NCBI RefSeq assembly: GCF_000196115.1
Contig: NC_005027.1
Coordinates: 6,940,001-7,004,000, forward strand
Source: Rhodopirellula baltica SH 1
GTDB taxonomy: Bacteria > Planctomycetota > Planctomycetia > Pirellulales > Pirellulaceae
Direction of reading: 5' to 3'
Length of the DNA: 64,000 nt
Shown here: positions 5,208 through 49,010 of the stretch, piece by piece
Layout of the letters: each line of letters begins with the position of its first letter
Numbering within the stretch: the stretch's first letter is position 1
Notes under the pieces: model-generated
The model's input: the letters and a program-made list of their open reading frames with translations, nothing else
Told to the model about the DNA's origin: nothing
The model's database searches: none
Position numbers and translations under genes: made by a program

Positions 5208-5255
5208 TCACGTGAGGTTGTTACCAAGTGTGAATCGCAAATTTGCAACTTCCCT

Positions 5256-6113
5256 GTAGGCCATGTTGTACATGGCGTTCACGCCGATGCTTTGGAACAA
5301 AGCGAGGCGTGATTTCTATGTCATCGCAAGAGCATCTCTCACCGGCATGCAACCATTGCCAGGTGGAACCTGGCCTACGTGCACAGGTTCATCAATCAGC
5401 AATTGTCGATTTGCAATGTCGATTTTGCAATTTGCAATTTCCCTTGTATGCCATGTTGTACATGGCGATCGTGCCGATGCTTTGGAAGAAAGCGAGACGT
5501 GATTTGTATGTCATCGCAAGAGCATCTCTCACCGGCATGCAACCATCGCCAGGTGGAACCTGGCCTACGTGCACAGGTACATCGATCAGCAATTGTCAAT
5601 TTTCAATGTCGATTTTGCAATCTCTCCTGTAGGCCATGTTGTACATGGCGTTCATGCCGATGCTTTGGAAGAAAGCGAGGCGTGTTGTATGCCATCGCAA
5701 GGGCTTCGCTGACCGGCATGCAACCATTGCCAGGTGGAATTTGGCCTACGTGCTAAGGTTCATTGATCAGCAATTGCCAATTTGCAATGTCGATTTTGCA
5801 ATCTCTTGCAGGCCATGTTGTACATGGCGTTCTTGCCGATGCTTTGGTACAAAGCGAGGCGTGATTTGTGTGCCATCGCAAGAGGGTCGCTCACCGGCAT
5901 GCAACCATTGCCAGGTGGAACCTGGCCTACGTGCACAGGTTCGACGATCGGCAATTGCCAAATTGCAATGTCGATTTTGCAATCCCTCCTGTAGGCCATG
6001 TTGTACATGGCGATTGTGCCGATGCTTTGGAAGAAAGCGAGGCGTAATTGATATGCCATCGCAAGAGCATCGCTCAACGGCGTGTAACCATTGCTAGGTG
6101 GAACCTGGCCTAC
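5256..6113 (+). repeat. Five tandem 123-bp palindrome-ended elements with AT-rich spacers
   Basis: Copies lie at 5256-5378, 5446-5568, 5629-5749, 5808-5930 and 5991-6113. Each opens with GTAGGCC (or a one-base variant) and an inverted repeat GCCATGT-TGT-ACATGGC. Each closes with CCAGGT-GGA-ACCTGG (or a near match) and GGCCTAC, so the whole unit has inverted ends GTAGGCC/GGCCTAC. The interior, with CCGATGCTTTGG and GGCATGCAACCAT, is conserved. Spacers of about 60-67 bp contain TTGCAATGTCGATTTTGCAA. Open frames through the array are repeat translations, not genes. The array ends 3 bp before the stop codon of the convergent isomerase gene. Confidence 0.95.
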
Positions 6114-6116
6114 GTG

Positions 6117-7028
6117 CTACGCGTTGACTCCCAGGCGTTTTTGAAGCGTCTTCAGGTCGGTTGTCATGGCCTCGAGGTGCTGAGGCACGAGCGCTGGATC
6201 GCGATGGTCGAGGTATTCTTCGTGCAATGAGATCGGGCAGTTCAGGTCGCTGGCCTTCACCGCGTCGAAGAACTTCTGGCTGACCAGCCCGTCACCCAGT
6301 GGTACGTTTGTCACTCGGCCATCGACCCATTGGAAATCTTTGACGTACAGCATGCGAACGCGGGGCTGGATCATTCGCCAAGTCACCGGCCAACTCATGC
6401 CGCCTTCGACTTGTGCGTGCCGGATGTCGTAGACGACGCCCATGTGATCCGGCGAGATGTCAGAAAGAACTCGATCGAGGTCCCAAAGCGACGCACCCAG
6501 GTAATTTTCTCCCGCGTGGTTTTGATAGAGCGCCTGCACGCCGATTTTCCCGCAGTAATCTGCGAGCTCGCCAAATTGTTGCTTCCAGTGATCAAGTTGG
6601 TGTTTGATTGGCTGCTTGCGGTTGTACTTGCCGTACCGCATGCGGAATCGCGAGATGCCCAAGTCGGCGGCGGTTTCAAGAACGGTGGCTCGATGGGGAT
6701 CGCCCATCTCACCGATGTCAGTTGTGATGAGCGTGATCTCGAGGCCATGTTTTTGCATCGATCGTTGCATTTCAGGCAGCTTCTCGGCCGCATCGGCGGG
6801 CTCCACGTTGCCACCTCTTCGGACGGTGGCTTCGACTCCGTCAAAGCCCGCTTTTGCAAGTGCCGCGGCCATCTCATCAAACGACATCGAGTTGAGTGGT
6901 TTGGTGAAAACGCAGATTGGCCAACGGCTCTCGGTTTTAGTTTCAGCCGCGAAAAGACTGCGAGTCGACAGCGAAGCAAGTGATGCGGCGGCGAGAGAGC
7001 CCGCAAGAAAATCGCGGCGGTGGGGCAT
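6117..7028 (-). CDS. Tat-exported sugar phosphate isomerase/epimerase-like TIM-barrel protein
   Basis: The N-terminus MPHRRDFLAGSLAAASL contains a twin arginine followed by a hydrophobic stretch ending near AAE, a typical Tat signal. The mature part fits the xylose isomerase-like TIM barrel (AP endonuclease 2 superfamily), with segments such as GFDGVEATVRRGG, YQNHAGEN and MGVVYDIRHA. Planctomycetes carry many such exported paralogues, probably for carbohydrate or polyol turnover. The substrate is not predictable. At 303 residues the barrel looks complete. It appears monocistronic and runs convergently into the 123-bp repeat array. Confidence 0.85.
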   Translation of the reverse strand: MPHRRDFLAGSLAAASLASLSTRSLFAAETKTESRWPICVFTKPLNSMSFDEMAAALAKAGFDGVEATVRRGGNVEPADAAEKLPEMQRSMQKHGLEITLITTDIGEMGDPHRATVLETAADLGISRFRMRYGKYNRKQPIKHQLDHWKQQFGELADYCGKIGVQALYQNHAGENYLGASLWDLDRVLSDISPDHMGVVYDIRHAQVEGGMSWPVTWRMIQPRVRMLYVKDFQWVDGRVTNVPLGDGLVSQKFFDAVKASDLNCPISLHEEYLDHRDPALVPQHLEAMTTDLKTLQKRLGVNA

Positions 7029-37140: not shown

Positions 37141-39138
37141 ATGAATCCCCTTCGATCCCCGCGTTTCGGCCGCTCATTTGCACCGAAGTTTCCAGTTGTA
37201 ACGTTGATGATGCCCCTCGCGTGCCTTTTGGTTGCAACCGCGTGGCTGTCATCGCCATCGGTTGCCTTCGCTCAAAGCTCAGCGACGGATAACGAAAGCC
37301 GGACCACCGTGCCTGCGCCGCGGCTATTGCCGTCGGGCACCCTGGCCTACTTGCGAATCGATGACGTCAACGACATTCGCGAAGATTGGGGCGAATCCTC
37401 GCTGGGGAAAATGCTGAACGATCCCAAGATGCGTCCCTTCGTTTCGGACATCTATCAAATCCTCACTGATCTGTTTGAAAAGCCCGGCAAAGAAATGGGG
37501 CTGACGCTCGACGAGCTCCGATCGCTTCCGCAAGGTCAGGTCGCGATCGCTCTTCTCGAGGGGCCACCGCCGGAGGAAAAGACCGACGAGGAGAAAGCGG
37601 ATGAGGAAGAAGACGATGATGCCATTGCACGTCGCTTGCGAAACAAACGACGTCAGCAGAACTCTTTCGCTTTGGCGATCATGATCGATGCTGGTCCAAA
37701 CAACAAAGAAATGGAAACCCTGGTTGAACGCCTGATGGGCCTGGCGGAGAAGAATCGCATGATCATCCAGAACGAACAAATTGGTTCGATCGAGCTGACG
37801 CGATTGGTCCGCCAACGTGGTGATGGCGATGTCATCGAATGGTTTGAACAAGATGGCTTTTACGTCATTGGATTGGGACGAACGATCGCTCAATCGATTG
37901 CGAAAAAAATGAATGATGAGCAGCGTGATACCAGCCAGTCATCCGGGCGTTCACGACGCACCGTGAAAACGACTTCTGCTGATTCGGAGACGCTCGCACA
38001 AAACGCGGACTTCATTGCCGTGATGAGCCGATCGATTGGCGCCGAAGCCGAGATCCCGCAGATCACATTCTTCGTCAATCCTTATGGCATCGCGAAACGA
38101 ATCATCGCGAGAAGTGGATCGGCGTTCTTTATCGCGCCGATTGTCCAAGACCTAGGCATCGAAAAGATTCGTGGGATCGGTGGCAGCCTTTTCCGCGGCG
38201 GTGAGATCGTTGAGTCGATTGGTCACATGCACGTGTTGATTGATCCACCACGAGATGGTTTCTTTGGCGTGCTGCGTCCGGAAGACATCGAAGTCTCACC
38301 ACCGGTTTGGGTTCCGGCCGACGCGGCCAGTTTCACTTGCGTGGGTTGGGATATCGAAACCGCGTTTGAAAACGTTGGGAAAATCGTCAACCGTTTCGCC
38401 GGCGAGGGCAGTTTCGAGAAAAACACCGAGAAGCCAGCGAAGGAGCGTTTCGATTTGTCGCTCAAAGAAGAGGTGCTCCCTTTGATGACCGGTCGCGTTG
38501 TCACGATCCAACGCTATCAGTTGCCCGCCAACTGGAATTCGATGGCACGGGCAATCGCGATCGAAGTCAAAGACGCCAAGGAAGCGGACAAGTTGCTCGA
38601 CCGAGTCAAAGCCAAAGTACCACCGCAACGAATGAAACCCGAGGTTCTTCGCGGCAAAACGGCTTACTTCTCTGAACAACGTCAATTTGATCAACCTGGC
38701 ATCCGGGTGCCTGAAAACAGCGTGATGTTGCTCGGCAATTGGTTGCTGTTCTGCGACAGTCGCGAAGTGTTGCAGCAAGTGCTGCGTGCTGAGGCCGGTG
38801 AAATTGATCGCTTGGCAGACGACGAAGACTACGTGCTGCTGACGAGTGAACTTGGGGCCAAGTTGGAAGGCGAAACGCCGTTCCTTTTTCAGTTCAATCG
38901 CGATGCCGAGACGTATCGGATCCTGTACGAAATGGCTAACTCGGATGAAACCGCACAGTCGGTCGAGAATCGAGGCGGCGACAATCCCATGGCACGTCGC
39001 GTTGCCGAACTGATGCGGCGAGATGATTGGCCGAAGTGGGAGGAATTGGAAAAGTATTTCAGCGTCAGCGGCATCTTCGGCTATGACGAACCAGGCAGCA
39101 TCCACATCGGTTCCATGAATCTTCGCCCGATCGAGTGA
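37141..39138 (+). CDS. Large secreted protein, DUF3352-like
   Basis: 665 residues with a long signal peptide (hydrophobic 22-40, ending near FAQ). The mature start, LLPSGTLAYLRIDDVNDIREDWGESSLGKML, resembles the beginning of DUF3352-type proteins, in which a substrate-like fold starts with an allusion to LPADTLAYV. An acidic and basic low-complexity stretch lies at about 145-175. The rest shows alternating strands and helices without catalytic motifs. Localisation outside the cytoplasm is well supported; function is unknown. No good ribosome binding site is present. Confidence 0.7.
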   Translation: MNPLRSPRFGRSFAPKFPVVTLMMPLACLLVATAWLSSPSVAFAQSSATDNESRTTVPAPRLLPSGTLAYLRIDDVNDIREDWGESSLGKMLNDPKMRPFVSDIYQILTDLFEKPGKEMGLTLDELRSLPQGQVAIALLEGPPPEEKTDEEKADEEEDDDAIARRLRNKRRQQNSFALAIMIDAGPNNKEMETLVERLMGLAEKNRMIIQNEQIGSIELTRLVRQRGDGDVIEWFEQDGFYVIGLGRTIAQSIAKKMNDEQRDTSQSSGRSRRTVKTTSADSETLAQNADFIAVMSRSIGAEAEIPQITFFVNPYGIAKRIIARSGSAFFIAPIVQDLGIEKIRGIGGSLFRGGEIVESIGHMHVLIDPPRDGFFGVLRPEDIEVSPPVWVPADAASFTCVGWDIETAFENVGKIVNRFAGEGSFEKNTEKPAKERFDLSLKEEVLPLMTGRVVTIQRYQLPANWNSMARAIAIEVKDAKEADKLLDRVKAKVPPQRMKPEVLRGKTAYFSEQRQFDQPGIRVPENSVMLLGNWLLFCDSREVLQQVLRAEAGEIDRLADDEDYVLLTSELGAKLEGETPFLFQFNRDAETYRILYEMANSDETAQSVENRGGDNPMARRVAELMRRDDWPKWEELEKYFSVSGIFGYDEPGSIHIGSMNLRPIE

Positions 39139-39204
39139 GTCGCCCCGCCGAGCATTCAAGTTCGTCCCGGAGGCCATCGATTCAACGAGCGATTGCTTCC
39201 TGAA

Positions 39205-39887
39205 GTAGGCCGGATCAATCCGCTTCGGCGCCGCTCCGGCAGATGAGCAGTTCTCGCCAGTTCAGTCGCTGCCGGATGTGCGTTGCAAAGCCTCCTTCAT
39301 CCGGCCTACATTGCTTCGCCCGATGGAGTGAATCGCCTTGCCGTGCGTGCAAGTTCGTCCCAGAGAACTTCGATTCAACGAGCGATCGCCTCCTAAAGTA
39401 GGCCGGATCAAGCCGCTTCGGCGCCGCTCCGGCAGGTGAGCTGTTTTCGCCAGTTCAGTCATTGCCGGATGTGCGTCGCAAAGCCTCCTTCGTCCGGCCT
39501 ACGTTGCTTCGTCCGATTGAGTGAATCGCTTTGCCGCGTGTGCAAGTTATTCCGGAGGATATCGATTCAACGAGCGATTGCTTCCTGAAGTAGGCCGGAT
39601 CAAGCCGCTTCGTCGCCGCTCCGGCAGACGAGCTGTTTTCGCTAGTTCAGTCACTGCCGGATGTGCGTCGCAAAGCCTCCTTCGTCCGGCCTACATTGCT
39701 TCGTCCGATTGAGTGAATCGCCTTGCCATGCATGCAATTTTGTCCCAGAGAACCTCGATACGACGAGCGATTGCTTCCTGAAGTAGGCCGGATCAAGCCG
39801 CTTCGGCGCCGCTCCGGCAGACGAGCTGTTCTCGCCAGTTCAGTCACTGCCGGATGTGCGTCGCAAAGCCTCCTTCATCCGGCCTAC
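39205..39887 (+). repeat. Four tandem 105-bp elements with GTAGGCCGGAT inverted ends
   Basis: Copies at 39205-39309, 39398-39502, 39590-39694 and 39783-39887, each exactly 105 bp. Each starts GTAGGCCGGAT and ends with its complement, AT/GTCCGGCCTAC. Interiors (CCGCTTCGGCGCCGCTCCGGCAG and TGCCGGATGTGCG) are nearly identical. Spacers of 87-88 bp are also conserved and include ATTCAACGAGCGATTGC. Ends resemble the 123-bp element family at 5256-6113. Open frames through it are artefacts of the repeat. Confidence 0.95.
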
Positions 39888-39959
39888 ATCGGTTAAGAGG
39901 GGCAGCACAAGGTGTATCCACGCTCAGCCCCACCTTCGCGTACGCCAAATGAAAGTGAG

Positions 39960-40056: not shown

Positions 40057-40695
40057 TCAAAGATCCAACTCGTCCAGTTCATCCACCAATGCGTCCAAGT
40101 CAGTGGATTGGTTCTTGGTCAATGGCGGCGTGGCGGAAGCCAACGGCGAAGCCTCTGACGCGGGTGGCTTGGCCAAAGACGGCGTCACGTTTTGGATGGG
40201 GGCGGCGTTGGGCTGGGCTTTGGACGCCGACGTTGCCTTCGTCTGTTTAGGTGACGTTGAACCAGCCATCCCGATCTGAAACATCGGAGTCTGTCGAGTC
40301 GCCAGCAACGCTTGCAAGTCCGCCAAGATTGTCTGCGATGCACCTTCGCGACGCATGTCAAAGTGATACAGCTTCGCGATCGGTTCATCGCCTTGAACCG
40401 GGGCGGCATCCACGTCTCGTCGGTGCGGCACACGAGCGACCCGTTTGCCCAACAACCCAAGCGGTTCGGAAACCTTTTCGGCTTCCGTCCAACCAACGCA
40501 AGCGACATCGCCCGCGATTGATTCCACTGCCAATCGTTCCGTGCCGGACTCGTCCGGTCCAGGGATGCGATCGAGCAATACAAGATCGAGTCCTGGCCGA
40601 CCGAGCAACTGCCCCACGGCATCGTCACATGCAGGATCAAAATGGCGATGTTCGCCGGTGGGACGAAGCACGATCACGTTCAAACGTACAGCCAT
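40057..40695 (-). CDS. Uncharacterised protein ending the ferredoxin-cytochrome operon
   Basis: About 212 residues from ATG at 40695, 11 bp after the ATPase gene. The N-terminal 135 residues form an alpha/beta domain starting AVRLNVIVLRPTGEHRHFD and containing GLDLVLLDRIPG and VGWTEAEKV; I do not recognise the fold. The C-terminal 75 residues are Pro/Ala/Ser/Thr-rich and end in an acidic LDALVDELDELDL stretch that could dock a partner. No signal peptide or membrane helix is visible. Its position suggests it works with the ATPase as an assembly or regulatory factor. That is an inference from context only. Confidence 0.6.
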   Translation of the reverse strand: MAVRLNVIVLRPTGEHRHFDPACDDAVGQLLGRPGLDLVLLDRIPGPDESGTERLAVESIAGDVACVGWTEAEKVSEPLGLLGKRVARVPHRRDVDAAPVQGDEPIAKLYHFDMRREGASQTILADLQALLATRQTPMFQIGMAGSTSPKQTKATSASKAQPNAAPIQNVTPSLAKPPASEASPLASATPPLTKNQSTDLDALVDELDELDL

Positions 40696-40706
40696 GGATG
40701 ATCCAC

Positions 40707-41471
40707 TCAGAGGTCGGGGCAATTTTGGGGGTGGGCGTCAGGCCGGAGATCGATGCGGTTGTCGGACGTTCCTGGCTCAGGCATCTCCGATGATGGCGTT
40801 TCCGAAGACAGCCCCACGACATCATAGAGTTGAGACCATAATTCGCGAACGTCGGTGACATCGGCGAAAGACGGCATTGATTCCGCCTTCCCGACCTTCG
40901 CCAGCTTTTCTCGGGCGTTCGGATGGTCTCCCAGCAATTCTGCCAGCAAGTCCTCAATCAGCTTGGCGGTCACCTTCGTTCGGTGCAACACGTGAAAACC
41001 GCGAAGATCCCGATGTGCCGTCGCCAAACAAAAATGGCCCGCTTGTTGAGCTCGTCGACGAATTCGAAAGCGTCCCCACGGAGACAATTGTTCCGCCCCG
41101 TCGATAACCAACACTCCACCAGGCGAAACCGTTGCCTGTGTCTCAATCGCGGCTCGGTCGTTCTGCAGCATGCTGGAGACGACAGCGATCGGCGAGCGGT
41201 TGGGATCGGCGGTCAGTTGAATCCATTTCCCGCCGGGGAACTTCTCCTGCAACGCGTGGGCCATGTTGTGCAACAGCGTCGACTTGCCAGTCCCATGATT
41301 TCCAACGATCAAACCGAGTCGATGTTGCCGCAAGTCTGCCAGGATTCTCGCGATGTGCCCTGCCCGATCGCTTCCGTTCAGGTCAAAGCGAAACGGAATC
41401 GCACCCGGCCGCGTGTGACGACTGGAAAATGGATTCGTCGGTTGAGACGGCTGTCGGAGTTCATGGGACAT
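40707..41471 (-). CDS. AAA-type ATPase resembling ExeA/MSHA-type secretion ATPases
   Basis: Cytoplasmic ATPase of about 254 residues. Walker A is GNHGTGKST at 57-65 and Walker B VLVIDGAE at about 120-127. The order of a short N-terminal region, P-loop, and a helical lid without extra domains resembles the ExeA/TniB-like AAA group. The C-terminal 60 residues are Pro/Ser/Asp-rich. ATG at 41471 (or 41480) overlaps the end of the cytochrome c gene by 11 or 20 bp, so translation is coupled. An assembly or maturation role for the redox complex is inferred from the position. Confidence 0.7.
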   Translation of the reverse strand: MSHELRQPSQPTNPFSSRHTRPGAIPFRFDLNGSDRAGHIARILADLRQHRLGLIVGNHGTGKSTLLHNMAHALQEKFPGGKWIQLTADPNRSPIAVVSSMLQNDRAAIETQATVSPGGVLVIDGAEQLSPWGRFRIRRRAQQAGHFCLATAHRDLRGFHVLHRTKVTAKLIEDLLAELLGDHPNAREKLAKVGKAESMPSFADVTDVRELWSQLYDVVGLSSETPSSEMPEPGTSDNRIDLRPDAHPQNCPDL

Positions 41472-43809
41472 CGTGCACATGATAGCGATGGCATCGTGTG
41501 CAGTGATCCCCCGCCGCCGACTTGGTGTGGCAACTGGAACAGCTCGCCTTCGTCATCGGCAAAAATTCAGGCGACGCATCGACCGGCGACTCACCAACCA
41601 TGTGCACCGCATTGGCCGGATTGGTCGTTCCAAGTTGGTGGCAGTGTTTGCAATCTTGCAATCCCTGCACGTTCAAGTGAGGTGTGTGTGAGAAATGAGT
41701 GAGCCGATCGCCGTTTTCTTTGCCGCGGAACGCTTGCCAACGCATCGAAGCGAGCGACGCATTGGCCAACGAATCTGTTTGCACCTGGTGACACCCCACG
41801 CAGGCTTGAACTGCTGGCTGAGCCAACATGGATTGTTTGAGCGGGTCGTCGGGAGGCAACCGCTGAATGATCTCGATCATCGATCGCAACACCGCGTCGG
41901 AGTGACCTTTGCCTCGGTAGCGAACCGACAAAGTCACATCGTCTCGATACCAGCCACCAAACGATTGTGTTTTGGCCGCGTCGTAGCGAGCCGCCAACTC
42001 GGCCGCCCAGTCAGCTTTTTCCGGCGTGGGCGTTTCTTCCTCGGTGGTGGACCAAGAGGTCAATGGATCGTCGGCCAGCAACGGGTCATCGGCAAGCAAC
42101 GGATCAGCCCCGCCGAACCCGCCGCCAAAGTCGTTGTCGAATTCGCTTTCGACGTCATCGTCCAGCAATCCGCTGAACGCACCAGCCTGCATCGATGAAT
42201 CGACCTTGGTTTCGGCGGCGGTGTCAGCTTCACCAAACCAAACCCGCAGCGCGTCACGAACCAATTGAGGCGGAAACGATTCGACGAGCGGCAGAGCGGT
42301 TTGCTCATCGATCCTAGCTTCTCGCAGTCTTTGCATGAGTGCATCTTGACCGGTCGTCGCCAACTCTTGTGAGAGCTTGGTGATCGCCCTGCCCAGCGAT
42401 ACCGCTTCGACTTGGACAATTGGCGAATCCCAGTTCGCCGAATCGACACGCCGGAAACGATTCAGAGCCGACTCGCTGATCTGCTCTCGCAACATCAACG
42501 CCATCCAGCCATCCACCGTGCCATCGGCAAAACCCGTCGCCAGAGTCGGCCAATCTTCGACTTGCAGTGCGATGTCGTCCGGCAAGACCGGCAATTGCAA
42601 AAACGCGGGACCTTCGGCAACTTGAACTCGCAACGCTTCATCATGGCACTGCGCACATGCAATCTCGTACGGCAACGTTGTCATCACCGGATCGGTCGAG
42701 TCCAAATCAAAACTCGAGAAACTCGGTCCAATGTGACATGTCTTGCAATCAAACGTCGCAAAGGAGTTGGAGCTTGATGAATCTCCACCGTTTCGTTTCT
42801 CAGCTTCACTGGGAAAATGAATCTTCGCGTGCCTTCCATGATCAAAGTTGATGTTGGACGCGTGCGCGTACGGCCACTGGCCAAACTCGGGATGCGAATC
42901 AGCAAAGGAACCAAATTGATTGACGTGACAGGTTTGGCAACGCGAATCGGTGATGGCGGCGAGGTTCGCATCCGCTCCATGGTGTTCTTGGTGGCAAACG
43001 CTGCAGGCCAAGTTGTTTTGCAGCGATGACTTCCGGCTGACCGTTTGAACGGTGGGAACCGTTGAGGAAGCTTCGGAAATCTTCGCAATCGCAACCAGAT
43101 CACTGGACTGACCATCGGTGGGCTGGCTGCTTGCGAATTTATCATCAGCGAGCCTACTATCACGGGGCCCGTCATTACGGAGCCTGCCATCGCGTTTCTC
43201 GATCGCGGCCAAAGTCAGTTCGTCGCGGACTTCCTGCGACAAATTGTGTGCCCATCGAGCCGACTCGCGAGGCATTTGTTGCTCGTGGCAGTTCAGACAC
43301 AAGTCGGTCATGGCCACAGTCGGCATGTCGGCGTGTTTCGTATCATCGCCACCGATCCAGCTTGCCAAACTGAACAGGCCTTTGTCTTCGTTCTGCTTGC
43401 TCGATGTTGGATCGCTGGAGGATGTCAGCCAGCGGTTGCTGGTCGCATTTTGGTGACACGCCGCACATCGGTCTTGAGCCAATTCGCCCGACAGGATTTG
43501 CGCGTGAGCGGTTGTCAGGTTGCCCGGCTGAATGACTTTGGGTGTCGCTCGAGTCGCGAAGAGAACGACCATCGCGGCGGCCAAAATCGCCAGCATTGCG
43601 GCTGTGAATTGACGTCGACGTCCCGCCCAAGTTCGTCGTGGAGAACAAGCCTCATTCTCAGAATCATCGCTGTCGGCAAAGGGGCACGCACCGGTGCGGC
43701 TCGGTCCATGCAGACACGGATCGCATCCCGGTGAACGCCCGCATGCGTACGGGTGCCCGGGGCGTTCGATCCTCGGTGGTATCGGCAGTTGAAAGTCGTC
43801 GCGTCTCAT
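41461..43809 (-). CDS. Membrane-anchored decaheme c-type cytochrome
   Basis: About 782 residues. A cytoplasmic Cys-containing segment (C23, C29, C32, C42, C55) is followed by one membrane helix near 68-86 and a long exported part. Ten CxxCH heme sites are visible: CAACH, CLNCH, CSVCH, CQTCH, CKTCH, CAQCH, CVGCH, CKHCH, CSSCH and CTRCH. Six lie in the first half and four near the C-terminus, separated by about 300 heme-free residues that contain a DPLLAD direct repeat. ATG at 43809 overlaps the TGA of the cytochrome b gene (ATGA). It is likely the periplasmic electron carrier of the complex. The N-terminal cysteine cluster is unusual and could bind metal. Confidence 0.85.
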   Translation of the reverse strand: MRRDDFQLPIPPRIERPGHPYACGRSPGCDPCLHGPSRTGACPFADSDDSENEACSPRRTWAGRRRQFTAAMLAILAAAMVVLFATRATPKVIQPGNLTTAHAQILSGELAQDRCAACHQNATSNRWLTSSSDPTSSKQNEDKGLFSLASWIGGDDTKHADMPTVAMTDLCLNCHEQQMPRESARWAHNLSQEVRDELTLAAIEKRDGRLRNDGPRDSRLADDKFASSQPTDGQSSDLVAIAKISEASSTVPTVQTVSRKSSLQNNLACSVCHQEHHGADANLAAITDSRCQTCHVNQFGSFADSHPEFGQWPYAHASNINFDHGRHAKIHFPSEAEKRNGGDSSSSNSFATFDCKTCHIGPSFSSFDLDSTDPVMTTLPYEIACAQCHDEALRVQVAEGPAFLQLPVLPDDIALQVEDWPTLATGFADGTVDGWMALMLREQISESALNRFRRVDSANWDSPIVQVEAVSLGRAITKLSQELATTGQDALMQRLREARIDEQTALPLVESFPPQLVRDALRVWFGEADTAAETKVDSSMQAGAFSGLLDDDVESEFDNDFGGGFGGADPLLADDPLLADDPLTSWSTTEEETPTPEKADWAAELAARYDAAKTQSFGGWYRDDVTLSVRYRGKGHSDAVLRSMIEIIQRLPPDDPLKQSMLAQPAVQACVGCHQVQTDSLANASLASMRWQAFRGKENGDRLTHFSHTPHLNVQGLQDCKHCHQLGTTNPANAVHMVGESPVDASPEFLPMTKASCSSCHTKSAAGDHCTRCHRYHVHDVP

Positions 43810-44744
43810 GATTCCACAAACTGCAATGCATGAATGGTGTGCATGATGGCGAGCGCCACCAATCCCAACGACATCACGGCGTGAACCGCCACCCAAGCCC
43901 GCAGTCGCCACTGAAGAGCGTGCTGTGTATCCAGTTCATCGCGGCGACGAACCAAACCGGCAAGTTCATCGGCAACTTCTTTGCCGTCATCTTCCAAGTA
44001 CCGATGCAGCTCATTCAAACCGATCACCAAACGGCGACGTCGAAACGAATGAGCGAACAAGCGGTGTGACCACGAAAGCGGCGACTCGAGATACCGACGA
44101 AGGTATTGATCGTCAAACTCGCCCAAGACGCGTTGGGAGTCGACGCTGGTCAAACTGTCCAGACGCTGCGTCGCGCGTGCCGCCAATTGTTCTCGGTGCC
44201 AATCGATTTGATCGTACCGAGGCTGGCTGCCCATTGCGGTCAAACGAGCCGGCAATCGACGACTCGCCAGGATCCCATAGAATCCCGAGAGGCTGACGCC
44301 GATGAACAACACGCTCAGCGTTCCTTCCAGCCAACCATCGGCGATCAATCGTCCCGTCGCGATCGCGGGCACGTGCATCACAAACACGCCACACGCAAAT
44401 AGACCGGTGAAAATGTGAACCTGAGTCCAGGTGCTCATCGTGCCCAGTGGCAAGATCGGAATCCGACGACGAATGCCGATCGCAAACAAAATCAAGATCG
44501 AACTCAGCAGCGTCCAGCCGGTCATCACGCTGCTTCGATAGAGCGCCGCATGCAGCGTTTGCGATATCCAGGCGGTCAACACAATCGCAATCGCGACAAC
44601 GATCAAACTCGCGATTCGTCGACGACGAAACGACCATGCTCGACCGGTGCCAAACACTCGGCGACGGAATTTGGACAGGGCATCGGTGCGGAATTGTTGC
44701 CAACGTCGCGACGACGCAGAACGGCGGCGTTCAGCCACACTCAT
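43806..44744 (-). CDS. Membrane diheme cytochrome b-like subunit
   Basis: 312 residues with about five hydrophobic helices. Two helices each carry two histidines fourteen positions apart (H110/H124 and H288/H302), the H-x13-H spacing that holds two stacked b hemes in bc-type cytochromes. The long soluble loop between helices 4 and 5 (about 160-280) is charged and faces one side. It would pass electrons between the ferredoxin-like subunit or quinone and the decaheme cytochrome. Start and stop overlap both neighbours by 4 bp (ATGA). It is not a recognisable member of a named family such as NrfD or NapH. Heme binding is inferred. Confidence 0.75.
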   Translation of the reverse strand: MSVAERRRSASSRRWQQFRTDALSKFRRRVFGTGRAWSFRRRRIASLIVVAIAIVLTAWISQTLHAALYRSSVMTGWTLLSSILILFAIGIRRRIPILPLGTMSTWTQVHIFTGLFACGVFVMHVPAIATGRLIADGWLEGTLSVLFIGVSLSGFYGILASRRLPARLTAMGSQPRYDQIDWHREQLAARATQRLDSLTSVDSQRVLGEFDDQYLRRYLESPLSWSHRLFAHSFRRRRLVIGLNELHRYLEDDGKEVADELAGLVRRRDELDTQHALQWRLRAWVAVHAVMSLGLVALAIMHTIHALQFVES

Positions 44745-46603
44745 GTTCGTCTCCTCAACCAGTCTTCCAGCGGCGGCGATTCGCTCAAGTCAATTCGAAC
44801 GATCGCATCATGTGGGCACGCCGCGGCGCATGCCGGCCCGCTGGGCAGTCCACTGCACATGTCGCACTTGGTCGCTTTGGTGATTGGCCGGTTGCTCGCT
44901 TCGTCGGTGTAGGGACGTCCCTTAGGATCGTTCACCGCCGCCATTTCGATGTTGCCGTACGGGCACCCTTTGGCGCACGTGCCGCAACCAATGCAAATGG
45001 ATTCCGAAACACGAACGTGGCCGGTCGATTCCTCGCGGTGCAATGCTCCCGTCGGACAACCGATCATGCAAACCGGATCGGTGCAGTGCATGCAAGCCTG
45101 AACGAATTGCAGTCGATCGTGGTTGACGCCAACGCGAGCAAACTTGGGATTTCCGTCATGCACGCTCGCGCAGGCTTTGACGCAATCATCGCAACGGGTG
45201 CAACGATGCAAATCAATGATCATCGCTTCGCGACCGTTGTTGAAACGATTCTGAACGATGAACTCGAGCAATCCGGTGGGCTCAAAGGATGTCCCGGTTG
45301 GACTCGGCAAATCCTGCCATGTTTCTTCGCTGGTGTGATTCATCGCGGTCGAAACGATCGGCAAATCCACCTTCGGTCGCTTTTCGCTGCGTCGTTCACG
45401 AGCCTCCTCGGGCGCCGGCATTCGCAACAACGCTTTCGCGGCCGAAGCTGGCAATTCGCTGCGGCGAACGTGTGGCAAAATGTCGGTTGCAAAGCATTCG
45501 ACCGGGATGTGCAACGTGTCTAGGAACCCGACCGCACGAAGCGAATGCTGCAGCGGCAAATTGATCGGTCCGTCTTCATTGGTGACACCCAACGCGATCT
45601 CTTCCAGACCGAATAGGTGGCCCTTGCCGAGGTACGCGGTCGTTCGTTGAGCCACACCGTAGCTTTGACAAACCCGCCCAAAACCGCTGCGAACGATGAT
45701 CAGATCCGTGACCTGATGACCCTCGGTGGCCACCACCGGTTCGCTTTCAATTTGCTCGGCGGGAGAAAGCTTGCGAGTCTTTTTGTAGTCCGCATTCCAT
45801 TCCAATCGACCGAATGAACGTTGGACCGTCGCCGCAACCACTCGCTGCAAATTCTGCTCGGGAAGAAATCGCAACAACGGGATCTCACGCAAATGCAGCG
45901 GCAGCCAGTTTTCTCGGTAGTGATCGTCCATCCGCTGCGAAAACGCGGGATCGCGACGCAGCATCTTCAGACCCTGCAGTCGGATCTCCAGCAACGTGCT
46001 ATCACCCTGCGAAACAACTGTGGCCGATCGCGGCGACCGATACATCGCCGCAACTTCACCGAACAATTCACCCGGACTCAATCGTATACTTTGGCCGGCT
46101 CGCACCAGCCCATCGAAGTCCTGCAACTGTAAAACCGGAGGACGATCGTCCGCATGATGGGTGGAGGCATGCAAGTCGACATTCGGGACGACTTCCTCGG
46201 GACGCCGAGCTTCGCGAACGCCGGAAGGTCGGAGCAATTGCCAAACCGCTTTGGGCCACGATACTTTTTCGGTTTCACGACGACCGAGCAATTCCGGTGG
46301 CAATTCGCGAGTCAACAGTTCAGCGTGTCCATCAACCAATAGGAACGCACTGTTTGCGTAATCACCCTCGCGAGCGATCACTTCGCCGTGAGCAAAACGA
46401 TGCAATCGGCAATCGTTCCGAAGGATGCCATCGAGCGGAATCGATTTGGGAAACGCGGCCGGATCCAGGTTCGAAAAGGGGGACTGTTCGCGCAACCATC
46501 CCACGTCCGCATCGGTCATGTGCGGGTCCATCGGTTCGTCCCATCGTCGAGGACGACGCACAGCAATGGATTCATCGGTCATCATGTCTCGGTCGATAGC
46601 CAT
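44741..46603 (-). CDS. Tandem cyclic-nucleotide-binding domains fused to a four-cluster ferredoxin
   Basis: 620 residues. N-terminal CNB domain (about 58-215) with an apparently complete phosphate-binding cassette, GELFGEVAAMY followed by SPRSATV. It is interrupted by a 70-residue insertion. A second CNB-like domain (about 240-385) keeps the FGLEEIALG segment but lacks the arginine. After a linker, residues 458-605 form a DmsB/HybA-type ferredoxin with four [4Fe-4S] sites: C468/471/474/478, C504/507/512/516, C537/540/543/547 and C580/583/592/596. No membrane segment. It is the first gene of the operon and overlaps cytochrome b by 4 bp. It probably acts as the cytoplasmic electron-input subunit, gated by a cyclic nucleotide or similar ligand (inference). 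Confidence 0.87.
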   Translation of the reverse strand: MAIDRDMMTDESIAVRRPRRWDEPMDPHMTDADVGWLREQSPFSNLDPAAFPKSIPLDGILRNDCRLHRFAHGEVIAREGDYANSAFLLVDGHAELLTRELPPELLGRRETEKVSWPKAVWQLLRPSGVREARRPEEVVPNVDLHASTHHADDRPPVLQLQDFDGLVRAGQSIRLSPGELFGEVAAMYRSPRSATVVSQGDSTLLEIRLQGLKMLRRDPAFSQRMDDHYRENWLPLHLREIPLLRFLPEQNLQRVVAATVQRSFGRLEWNADYKKTRKLSPAEQIESEPVVATEGHQVTDLIIVRSGFGRVCQSYGVAQRTTAYLGKGHLFGLEEIALGVTNEDGPINLPLQHSLRAVGFLDTLHIPVECFATDILPHVRRSELPASAAKALLRMPAPEEARERRSEKRPKVDLPIVSTAMNHTSEETWQDLPSPTGTSFEPTGLLEFIVQNRFNNGREAMIIDLHRCTRCDDCVKACASVHDGNPKFARVGVNHDRLQFVQACMHCTDPVCMIGCPTGALHREESTGHVRVSESICIGCGTCAKGCPYGNIEMAAVNDPKGRPYTDEASNRPITKATKCDMCSGLPSGPACAAACPHDAIVRIDLSESPPLEDWLRRRT

Positions 46604-47100: not shown

Positions 47101-47180
47101 GAGGGAACCTTTGAAAGAGAAGCAAACCAACCGGTGAGTCCCACCCGTCGGATCCAATCATCGTAGCACGTTGGTTGAGA

Positions 47181-47432
<252 letters not shown>

Positions 47433-48935: not shown

Positions 48936-49010
48936 CGGGATGTGGCTCAGCCTGGTTAGAGCGCTGCACTGGGGGTGCAGAGGTCGCAAGTTCGAATCTT
49001 GTCATCCCGA
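48936..49010 (+). tRNA. tRNA-Pro (anticodon GGG)
   Basis: Full cloverleaf: acceptor CGGGATG/CATCCCG, D stem GCTC/GAGC, anticodon stem CTGCA/TGCAG with loop CTGGGGG (anticodon GGG at positions 34-36), variable AGGTC, T arm GCAAG-TTCGAAT-CTTGT, and discriminator A. The C1-G72 pair and A73 are as expected for proline tRNAs. No CCA is encoded. Confidence 0.97.

Follow-up and report, generated by a model that had tools for sequence, protein, structure and literature searches.

In the chromosome of Rhodopirellula baltica SH 1, three overlapping genes, here called A, B and C, encode a ferredoxin with cyclic nucleotide-binding (CNB) domains, a di-heme cytochrome b and a decaheme cytochrome c. They lie within a stretch of 64,000 nucleotides (NC_005027.1, positions 6,940,001 to 7,004,000), hereafter the window. 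We propose, with a probability of about 0.6, that A-B-C is the inner-membrane half of an electron conduit of the type named PCC4, a putative porin–cytochrome complex, which would send electrons outwards, would be gated by a cyclic nucleotide, and would draw on genes dispersed around the chromosome. The observations on which the proposal is built are the gene content and order, the invariance of the cofactor residues, the presence of a homologue of each component, and the co-inheritance of these components.

A three-gene operon for a ferredoxin, a cytochrome b and a decaheme cytochrome c

The operon is read from the minus strand of a genome assembled as one contig of 7,145,576 bases. A and B, and likewise B and C, overlap by 4 nt. 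The relevant features, in window coordinates, are as follows.

46603-44741, minus strand: gene A, 620 residues; tandem CNB domains and a four-cluster ferredoxin; cytoplasmic iron–sulphur subunit, predicted [4Fe-4S]
45959..46426, minus strand: first CNB domain region of A (CNB1; residues about 60-215), with the phosphate-binding-cassette-like motif GELFGEVAAMYRSPRSATV
44780..45271, minus strand: ferredoxin part of A (residues about 445-608), 16 cysteines in four groups
44744-43806, minus strand: gene B, 312 residues; five-helix di-heme cytochrome b with W-x3-H-x13-H twice and S-G-x-x-G
43809-41461, minus strand: gene C, 782 residues; decaheme cytochrome c with an N-terminal signal anchor
43636..43764, minus strand: four-cysteine (Cys4) unit of C, lying before the membrane anchor and predicted to be cytoplasmic
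41488..43467, minus strand: ten CxxCH heme sites of C

The likely start of C is ATG 43809, which overlaps the stop codon of B (ATGA); GTG 43911 was set aside in its favour.

An earlier note, made from these letters without database searches, had described three overlapping genes for a four-cluster ferredoxin, a cytochrome b and a decaheme cytochrome, and the 4 nt overlaps, the invariant Cys and His residues and the 10 CxxCH motifs bear this out. It had also placed a ligand-binding domain in the ferredoxin subunit; in a Pfam scan, A matched PF00027 (cNMP_binding) at 65.2 bits, over a cut-off of 27.5. The same protein matched PF13247 at 36.8 bits (cut-off 26.2), with other Fer4 models over cut-off too, and all 16 of its ferredoxin cysteines are invariant in an alignment of 32 A proteins. 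Sequence matches in the PDB were to HycB3/HycB4-type subunits, and the ferredoxin is of the HydN/HycB/DmsB type. The best NCBIfam scores, to HydN (64.8 bits, cut-off 260) and DsrO (54.4 bits, cut-off 200), were far under cut-off, and A was rejected as a subunit of DsrMKJOP, Nrf, dimethyl sulphoxide reductase or formate dehydrogenase. The Pfam scan found neither a catalytic nor an NrfD subunit among the five genes that make up A-B-C and its two neighbours D and E, as the note had stated of catalytic subunits.

B carries two histidine pairs, H110-x13-H124 and H288-x13-H302, within the motifs W106-H110-H124 and W284-H288-H302, together with S153-G154-F-Y-G157; all four histidines are kept in every one of 41 aligned B proteins, and a crude hydropathy count gives five hydrophobic segments. 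C matches PF22113 (51.6 bits, cut-off 30) and PF14522 (45.5 bits, cut-off 24.8), and the columns of its 10 CxxCH motifs are 98-100% conserved among 41 aligned C proteins. Its N-terminus contains one hydrophobic segment with an Arg-rich stretch before it, and the ten CxxCH motifs follow. From this arrangement, a single hydrophobic segment preceded by Arg-rich sequence, the N-terminus should be cytoplasmic and the hemes periplasmic.

The gene order A-B-C is conserved

We examined conservation in the family Pirellulaceae (241 genomes) and in a phylum sample of 294 genomes. A was detected in 44 of the 294 phylum genomes at E <= 1e-30 and in 146 of the 241 family genomes at E <= 1e-25; R. europaea 6C has a copy that is 99% identical (L127). 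Neighbourhoods were analysed in the best 80 of at least 537 stretches of named genomes encoding a relative (the named loci), labelled mostly as planctomycetes, with eight Verrucomicrobia or Opitutae/Opitutaceae-type labels, one metagenome-assembled genome (MAG) of Nitrospinota and one alphaproteobacterial MAG.

Of the 66 named loci with at least 3 kb downstream, 65 have B after A in the same orientation (the exception is L161), and in 61 of the 66 B and then an open reading frame with at least six hemes follow, the latter frame being absent in L145, L147, L150 and L152. A wider set of 61 loci, comprising 40 stretches picked from the phylum matches, 20 from the family matches and the window but not loci L072-L100, includes distant relatives of A; here B and a multiheme reading frame follow A in 46 of the 57 loci with room. 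Three exceptions, L054, L061 and L062, hold B and a multiheme gene elsewhere within the locus. A-B-C is an operon kept in Planctomycetes, Verrucomicrobia and two other MAGs. The search of gene order across Planctomycetes that the earlier note had suggested shows that its neighbours do not vary freely.

Correspondence with a predicted porin–cytochrome complex

The earlier note knew of no named complex to which the gene set belonged, and here it has to be corrected, since the set fits subgroup II of PCC4, itself only predicted. PCC4 was named, as a putative porin–cytochrome complex, by He, Barco, Emerson and Roden (2017; PMC5566968) on the basis of gene clusters seen in iron oxidisers and in certain other bacteria. 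As the main text of that paper describes it, the set consists of 4-, 5- and 10-heme cytochromes, a porin, and a WX3HX13H inner-membrane protein with five helices and SGXXG; in subgroup II a pfam13247 iron–sulphur gene lies upstream of the inner-membrane gene, and bearers are found among the Zeta-, Gamma- and Alphaproteobacteria and the Planctomycetes. The present genes correspond to this: B has five hydrophobic segments, two WX3HX13H motifs and SGXXG, the PF13247 gene A lies directly upstream, C carries 10 hemes, and genes for a 4-heme cytochrome, a 5-heme cytochrome and a porin-like protein are present in the R. baltica genome. We assign A-B-C to PCC4 because every component named there has a homologue in this genome; judged by the published description, it is the predicted inner-membrane part of a dispersed variant of subgroup II, a variant whose parts lie at four chromosomal sites and not in one cluster. 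The alphaproteobacterial MAG (L204) has a near-whole cluster.

To the question of whether the complex had already been characterised, the answer is mixed: it had been proposed, as PCC4, but no experimental characterisation was found in the literature searched, where there was also little follow-up of PCC4. Nothing was found there on an R. baltica decaheme, nor on CNB domains with multiheme cytochromes and ferredoxin in planctomycetes. When a cNMP-binding domain was sought with 4Fe-4S, multiheme and cytochrome b, the cNMP term was absent among the matches listed, and for Rhodopirellula with extracellular electron transfer none of the literature matches named Rhodopirellula in the title or at the start of the abstract.

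The MtrCAB, MtoAB and PioAB conduits join an inner-membrane module to a periplasmic multiheme cytochrome and an outer-membrane porin. The present system resembles the MtrCAB type in having an inner-membrane module, a periplasmic multiheme cytochrome and a predicted porin. It differs in that its porin profile has no PDB match, in that the decaheme C is anchored in the inner membrane, and in that electron entry is through a ferredoxin and a cytochrome b rather than a quinol oxidase of the CymA/NapC type. These conduits are mentioned, as porin–cytochrome systems, in PMC5566968 and PMC6344600. A further predicted system, a porin–multiheme cluster with 8-heme periplasmic cytochromes in Opitutus and relatives (He et al., 2017; PMC5615132), comes from Verrucomicrobia, in lineages of which A-B-C also occurs; the main text of that paper contains neither 'ferredoxin' nor 'cyclic nucleotide'. 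In planctomycete MAGs, porin–cytochrome genes are described in the main texts of Suarez et al. (2023; PMC10732223) and of a 2026 cave study that cites PCC4 and places ferredoxin-NADP+ reductase genes near decaheme–porin pairs (PMC13264449). 'Cyclic nucleotide' is absent from both of these main texts, and that of PMC5566968 has no 'cyclic nucleotide', 'Rhodopirellula' or 'FAD'.

The predicted outer parts are clustered in many relatives and dispersed in R. baltica

In many relatives (e.g. L034, L040, L042, L044 and L066) the genes are contiguous in the order 5-heme, porin, reductase, 4-heme, A, B, C. They encode a 5-heme cytochrome of ~650 residues, a porin-like protein of ~460-615 residues with no Pfam match, a flavin adenine dinucleotide (FAD)-NAD-2Fe-2S reductase with a hydrophobic N-terminus, and a 4-heme cytochrome of the c554 type. 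Of the 80 named loci, 11 contain both the 5-heme and the porin gene, as do 12 of 60 other loci with A, counts in which some loci are cut by contig ends or stretch limits.

Searches of the R. baltica genome with profiles of the relatives' genes found a 5-heme and a porin gene side by side at 3.86 Mb (L124:8315-10393, E 1.5e-195, and L124:10390-12096, E 2.6e-84) and a lone 4-heme gene at 1.455 Mb (L126:7738-8880, E 8.2e-118). With the porin of just one relative as query, this genome had given no match; the porin profile later detected the gene. At 1.176 Mb (L219:8011-9327) lies the gene for a matching reductase, which combines FAD, NAD and 2Fe-2S domains and whose N-terminus is hydrophobic. A second reductase match, at 6.60 Mb, was rejected; it ends before the 2Fe-2S part and, by eye, has a flavohaemoglobin-like start. 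A-B-C is separated from these genes by 3.1, 1.6 and 1.3 Mb, making four sites overall. The full electron path that had been read from the operon stands from ferredoxin to cytochrome b to decaheme, but this is only the inner-membrane half, the rest being at the three other sites.

In 12 of the 12 genomes measured (the window's own, nine others, and two with rounded lengths) A is 335-3952 kb from the 5-heme gene. Because A still has the genes for the reductase and the 4-heme protein beside it in G406, and these two genes are paired with each other away from A in G299, the distribution suggests that the cluster broke up stepwise.

The porin may be an outer-membrane beta-barrel with a pore. Its C-terminal Phe is invariant (14 of 14), and 25 alternating windows were counted against 16.7 +/- 3.0 in shuffled sequences, of which 3 in 500 reached 25; three other alignments had no such excess. 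Both small cytochromes match PF13435, cytochrome c554, and among NCBIfam models the 4-heme protein scores best with NF043010 (Cyt554_Nsmonas), at 38.8 bits well short of the cut-off of 400. These matches would fit a different reading, in which A-B-C is a stand-alone inner-membrane oxidoreductase that supplies soluble periplasmic cytochromes, the c554-like 4- and 5-heme proteins reduce a nitrogen compound or detoxify nitric oxide, and the porin is only a channel. However, the 5-heme and porin genes adjoin each other in R. baltica and in the two other genomes viewed, and co-inheritance with A is of similar strength for the porin and for the cytochromes. We regard this reading as quite improbable.

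Two genomes that lack A have a related pair alone, a six-heme cytochrome and a porin-like protein (L217:9120-12853 and L218:6777-10423), and weaker matches of these kinds recur in other family genomes without A. The pair is possibly a second porin–cytochrome system with another inner-membrane partner.

The scattered parts are co-inherited with A

If the scattered genes form one system, they are expected to be gained and lost jointly. We therefore searched the 241 family genomes for A, the 5-heme cytochrome, the porin, the 4-heme cytochrome and the reductase. A was counted at E <= 1e-50, which retains 123 genomes; the other 23 of the 146, with weaker matches, were scored as lacking A. For the 5-heme protein, 19 of the 130 genomes with a match had a short or fragmentary one and were scored as absent, as were 24 of 139, with weaker or partial matches, for the porin. 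All 116 genomes with a 4-heme match and all 75 with a reductase match (cut at E 1e-80) were scored as present, partial matches included.

The 5-heme gene was present in 105 of the 123 genomes with A, compared with six of the 118 without; the corresponding figures were 108 and seven for the porin, 112 and four for the 4-heme gene, and 72 and three for the reductase. The 5-heme, porin and 4-heme genes were all present in 99 of the 123. The pattern persisted in the 159 genomes of higher quality (completeness of 90% or more and contamination of 5% or less, values taken from rounded tables). Among the 83 of these with A, 74 had the 5-heme gene, 78 the porin, 75 the 4-heme gene and 46 the reductase, compared with one genome for each among the 76 without A. 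Together with 14 genomes with weak A, counted by hand, these 83 make up the 97 tallied by the search for A. Within six genera the association had the same sign, with Cochran–Mantel–Haenszel p values of 5e-14 (5-heme), 2e-14 (porin), 1e-15 (4-heme) and 9e-8 (reductase), the strata assuming that consecutive genomes in the list share a genus. The scattered parts thus tend to be inherited with A.

In the window's own genus, 11 of 13 genomes hold A, the 5-heme, the porin and the 4-heme genes, eight of the 11 also having the reductase, and the other two hold none of these at the cut-offs used. This bears on the suggestion that the system is a dispersed, decaying and functionless remnant in Rhodopirellula, which would account for a cluster that is compact in many relatives and spread over four sites here. 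Such decay is hard to reconcile with the joint retention of the four genes in this genus, or with A-B-C proteins in which all of the heme, iron–sulphur and cytochrome b ligands are intact, and we consider it very improbable.

A candidate cyclic-nucleotide switch

The CNB1 motif GELFGEVAAMYRSPRSATV, which we take to be the phosphate-binding cassette of cyclic AMP/cyclic GMP (cAMP/cGMP) domains, with the consensus FGE...RxA(T/S), has its E183 in all 32 aligned A proteins and its R192 in 29 of them. The second CNB domain of A lacks the Arg. In 20 of the 80 named loci and in eight of 61 others, the A locus also contains a gene for a class III cyclase, read in the opposite direction to A, and PF00211 was over cut-off in all five cyclases scanned (L045, L119, L036, L114 and L161). 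Because the CNB1 cassette is intact and a cyclase gene is often found in the same locus, the comparison supports the predicted control of the conduit by a cyclic nucleotide. Some CNB-fold proteins bind ligands other than cyclic nucleotides.

A cysteine-rich unit in C

Ahead of its membrane anchor, C carries one or two copies of a Cys4 unit, CG..(G).C..GP...G.C....C.P. Of 41 aligned C proteins, 35 have its core motif, 17 of them in two copies, and six do not; because these six homologues lack it, the unit cannot be essential to the electron path. A profile built from the two-copy form does not detect the window's single-copy form; at E <= 1e-5 it picked out 21 places, spread over 19 of the 294 phylum genomes. 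All 19 are among the 44 genomes with A, and 20 of the 21 places are on contigs with A. The remaining place (L240, G071:C37) is at the head of another multiheme protein, which has seven hemes or more; that genome has an A-B-C locus as well. The two-copy profile had no PDB match, and the N-terminus of C had no Pfam match in the three C proteins scanned. The domain is apparently undescribed so far, and it may bind zinc or an iron–sulphur cluster next to A.

A more specific version of our proposal combines these elements: cAMP or cGMP, produced by a cyclase whose gene is often a neighbour, would switch the conduit on or off post-translationally through its iron–sulphur entry subunit, the Cys4 unit would provide a second metal site, and the system would be encoded at four chromosomal sites. 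We offer this version tentatively, and consider it somewhat doubtful.

A model for outward electron flow

We envisage that the parts would assemble physically into a conduit with the following order of steps. Electrons would pass from NAD(P)H, by way of the membrane-anchored FAD/2Fe-2S reductase, or from another cytoplasmic donor, to the four clusters of A, and would cross the membrane over the two b hemes of B. They would then reach the ten periplasmic hemes of C and the 4-heme c554-type protein, acting as a shuttle, and would exit by way of the 5-heme cytochrome, placed within the outer-membrane porin or next to it, to an outside acceptor that may be Fe(III), Mn(IV) or of humic type. Binding of a cyclic nucleotide by CNB1 would control electron entry. 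On this model the guess in the earlier note that the operon serves extracellular electron transfer would be right, a function predicted from gene content.

Electron flow is probably outward. We prefer this direction because of the cytoplasmic ferredoxin, the reductase, and the likeness of B to the ferric reductase core. In common with NADPH oxidases and ferric reductases, the system has two H-x13-H helices and an FAD-NAD reductase partner; it differs from them in being made of separate polypeptides, with a ferredoxin between. PF01794 (Ferric_reduct) was not over cut-off in any of the three B proteins compared, with no match in B of the window or of L034 and 15 bits against 28 in the distantly related B of L055.

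Several results weigh against the proposal. To our knowledge R. baltica is an aerobic heterotroph that is not known for extracellular electron transfer. B reached no Pfam cut-off, and its 15 PDB matches were weak (E 0.059 or worse) and mostly to coiled coils, giving no credible structure; the porin had no match in Pfam, NCBIfam or the PDB. The cassette Arg is missing from three of the 32 A proteins, and none of the three class III cyclase genes of R. baltica is near A. In the co-inheritance analysis, both the E cut-offs and the criterion for a long match were fixed after the tables had been viewed, kinship was only partly removed (by genus strata, with no species tree), and there was no unrelated control gene. 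At least one of the 5-heme (18), porin (15) and 4-heme (11) genes is missing from 24 of the 123 genomes with A, and five of the 83 of high quality (G437, G439, G464, G467 and G473) lack all four partners, the locus of G439 showing neither B nor C beside A. The reductase is missing, or below the E 1e-80 cut, in 51 of the 123, and three of its 75 matches (G400, G401 and G491) end ahead of the 2Fe-2S part. Because of these 51 genomes and three further truncated matches, the reductase is an optional component.

The undetected reductase would also suit the main rival to our proposal, in which the same conduit runs inward and is linked to quinone, electrons from Fe(II) or Mn(II) outside passing to C and from B to quinone. 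PCC4 was drawn in this way, having been found in iron oxidisers, and its inner-membrane protein was likened to quinone-active cytochromes b, with the likeness of Hx13H to ferric reductases also noted, in the main text of He et al. (2017; PMC5566968). Delivery to quinone, however, needs neither a cytoplasmic four-cluster ferredoxin nor an NAD(P)H/FAD/2Fe-2S reductase. An Hx13H core with a flavin reductase, moreover, resembles the ferric reductases and NADPH oxidases, which send electrons outwards. We regard inward flow as unlikely, and retain the outward, gated conduit as our working model.

Neighbouring genes and other features of the window

Two genes follow C on the same strand.

41480-40707, minus strand: gene D, 257 residues; P-loop ATPase-like; a neighbour, not counted as part of the system
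40695-40057, minus strand: gene E, about 212 residues from ATG; no Pfam match; a neighbour, not counted as part of the system

D and C share 20 nt. For E, ATG 40695, 11 nt past the end of D, is a likelier start than TTG 40722. The best Pfam match of D is AAA_16, at 31.9 bits just under the cut-off of 32.6. The earlier note had taken D and E as two further coupled genes, a view that does not survive comparison: D is near A in 11 of the 80 named loci, all within the first 26 rows and sometimes in the opposite orientation, and E is present in eight of these 11. With such counts and shifts of orientation we rejected D and E as parts of the system; they are lineage-specific neighbours. The D/E pair, in these close relatives, is downstream in Rhodopirellula and divergent upstream in Stieleria and others.

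Tandem arrays lie at 39121-39889 (a 193 bp unit in four copies), directly beyond the end of the operon, and at 5242-6117 (a 181 bp unit in 4.8 copies). Upstream of the operon, 7-base repeats occupy 47180-47429, AGCTTCT eight times and then GCTTCGT 29 times. A tRNA gene on the plus strand (48936-49010) is the sole Rfam match of the window at gathering scores. A scan for promoters and terminators gave two promoter-like sites, with 2.5 expected, and 10 terminator-like sites, with 8.5 expected.

Implications for the Pirellulaceae

Planctomycetes of the Pirellulaceae type are better known as aerobic sugar degraders. If our proposal is true, extracellular electron transfer could be common in this large marine and freshwater group, with A present in 123 of 241 genomes and the outer parts usually retained even where they are unlinked, and this scattering would explain why surveys based on gene clusters miss the system here. 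Rhodopirellula is a culturable model organism, in which control of an electron wire by a cyclic nucleotide could be put to the test.

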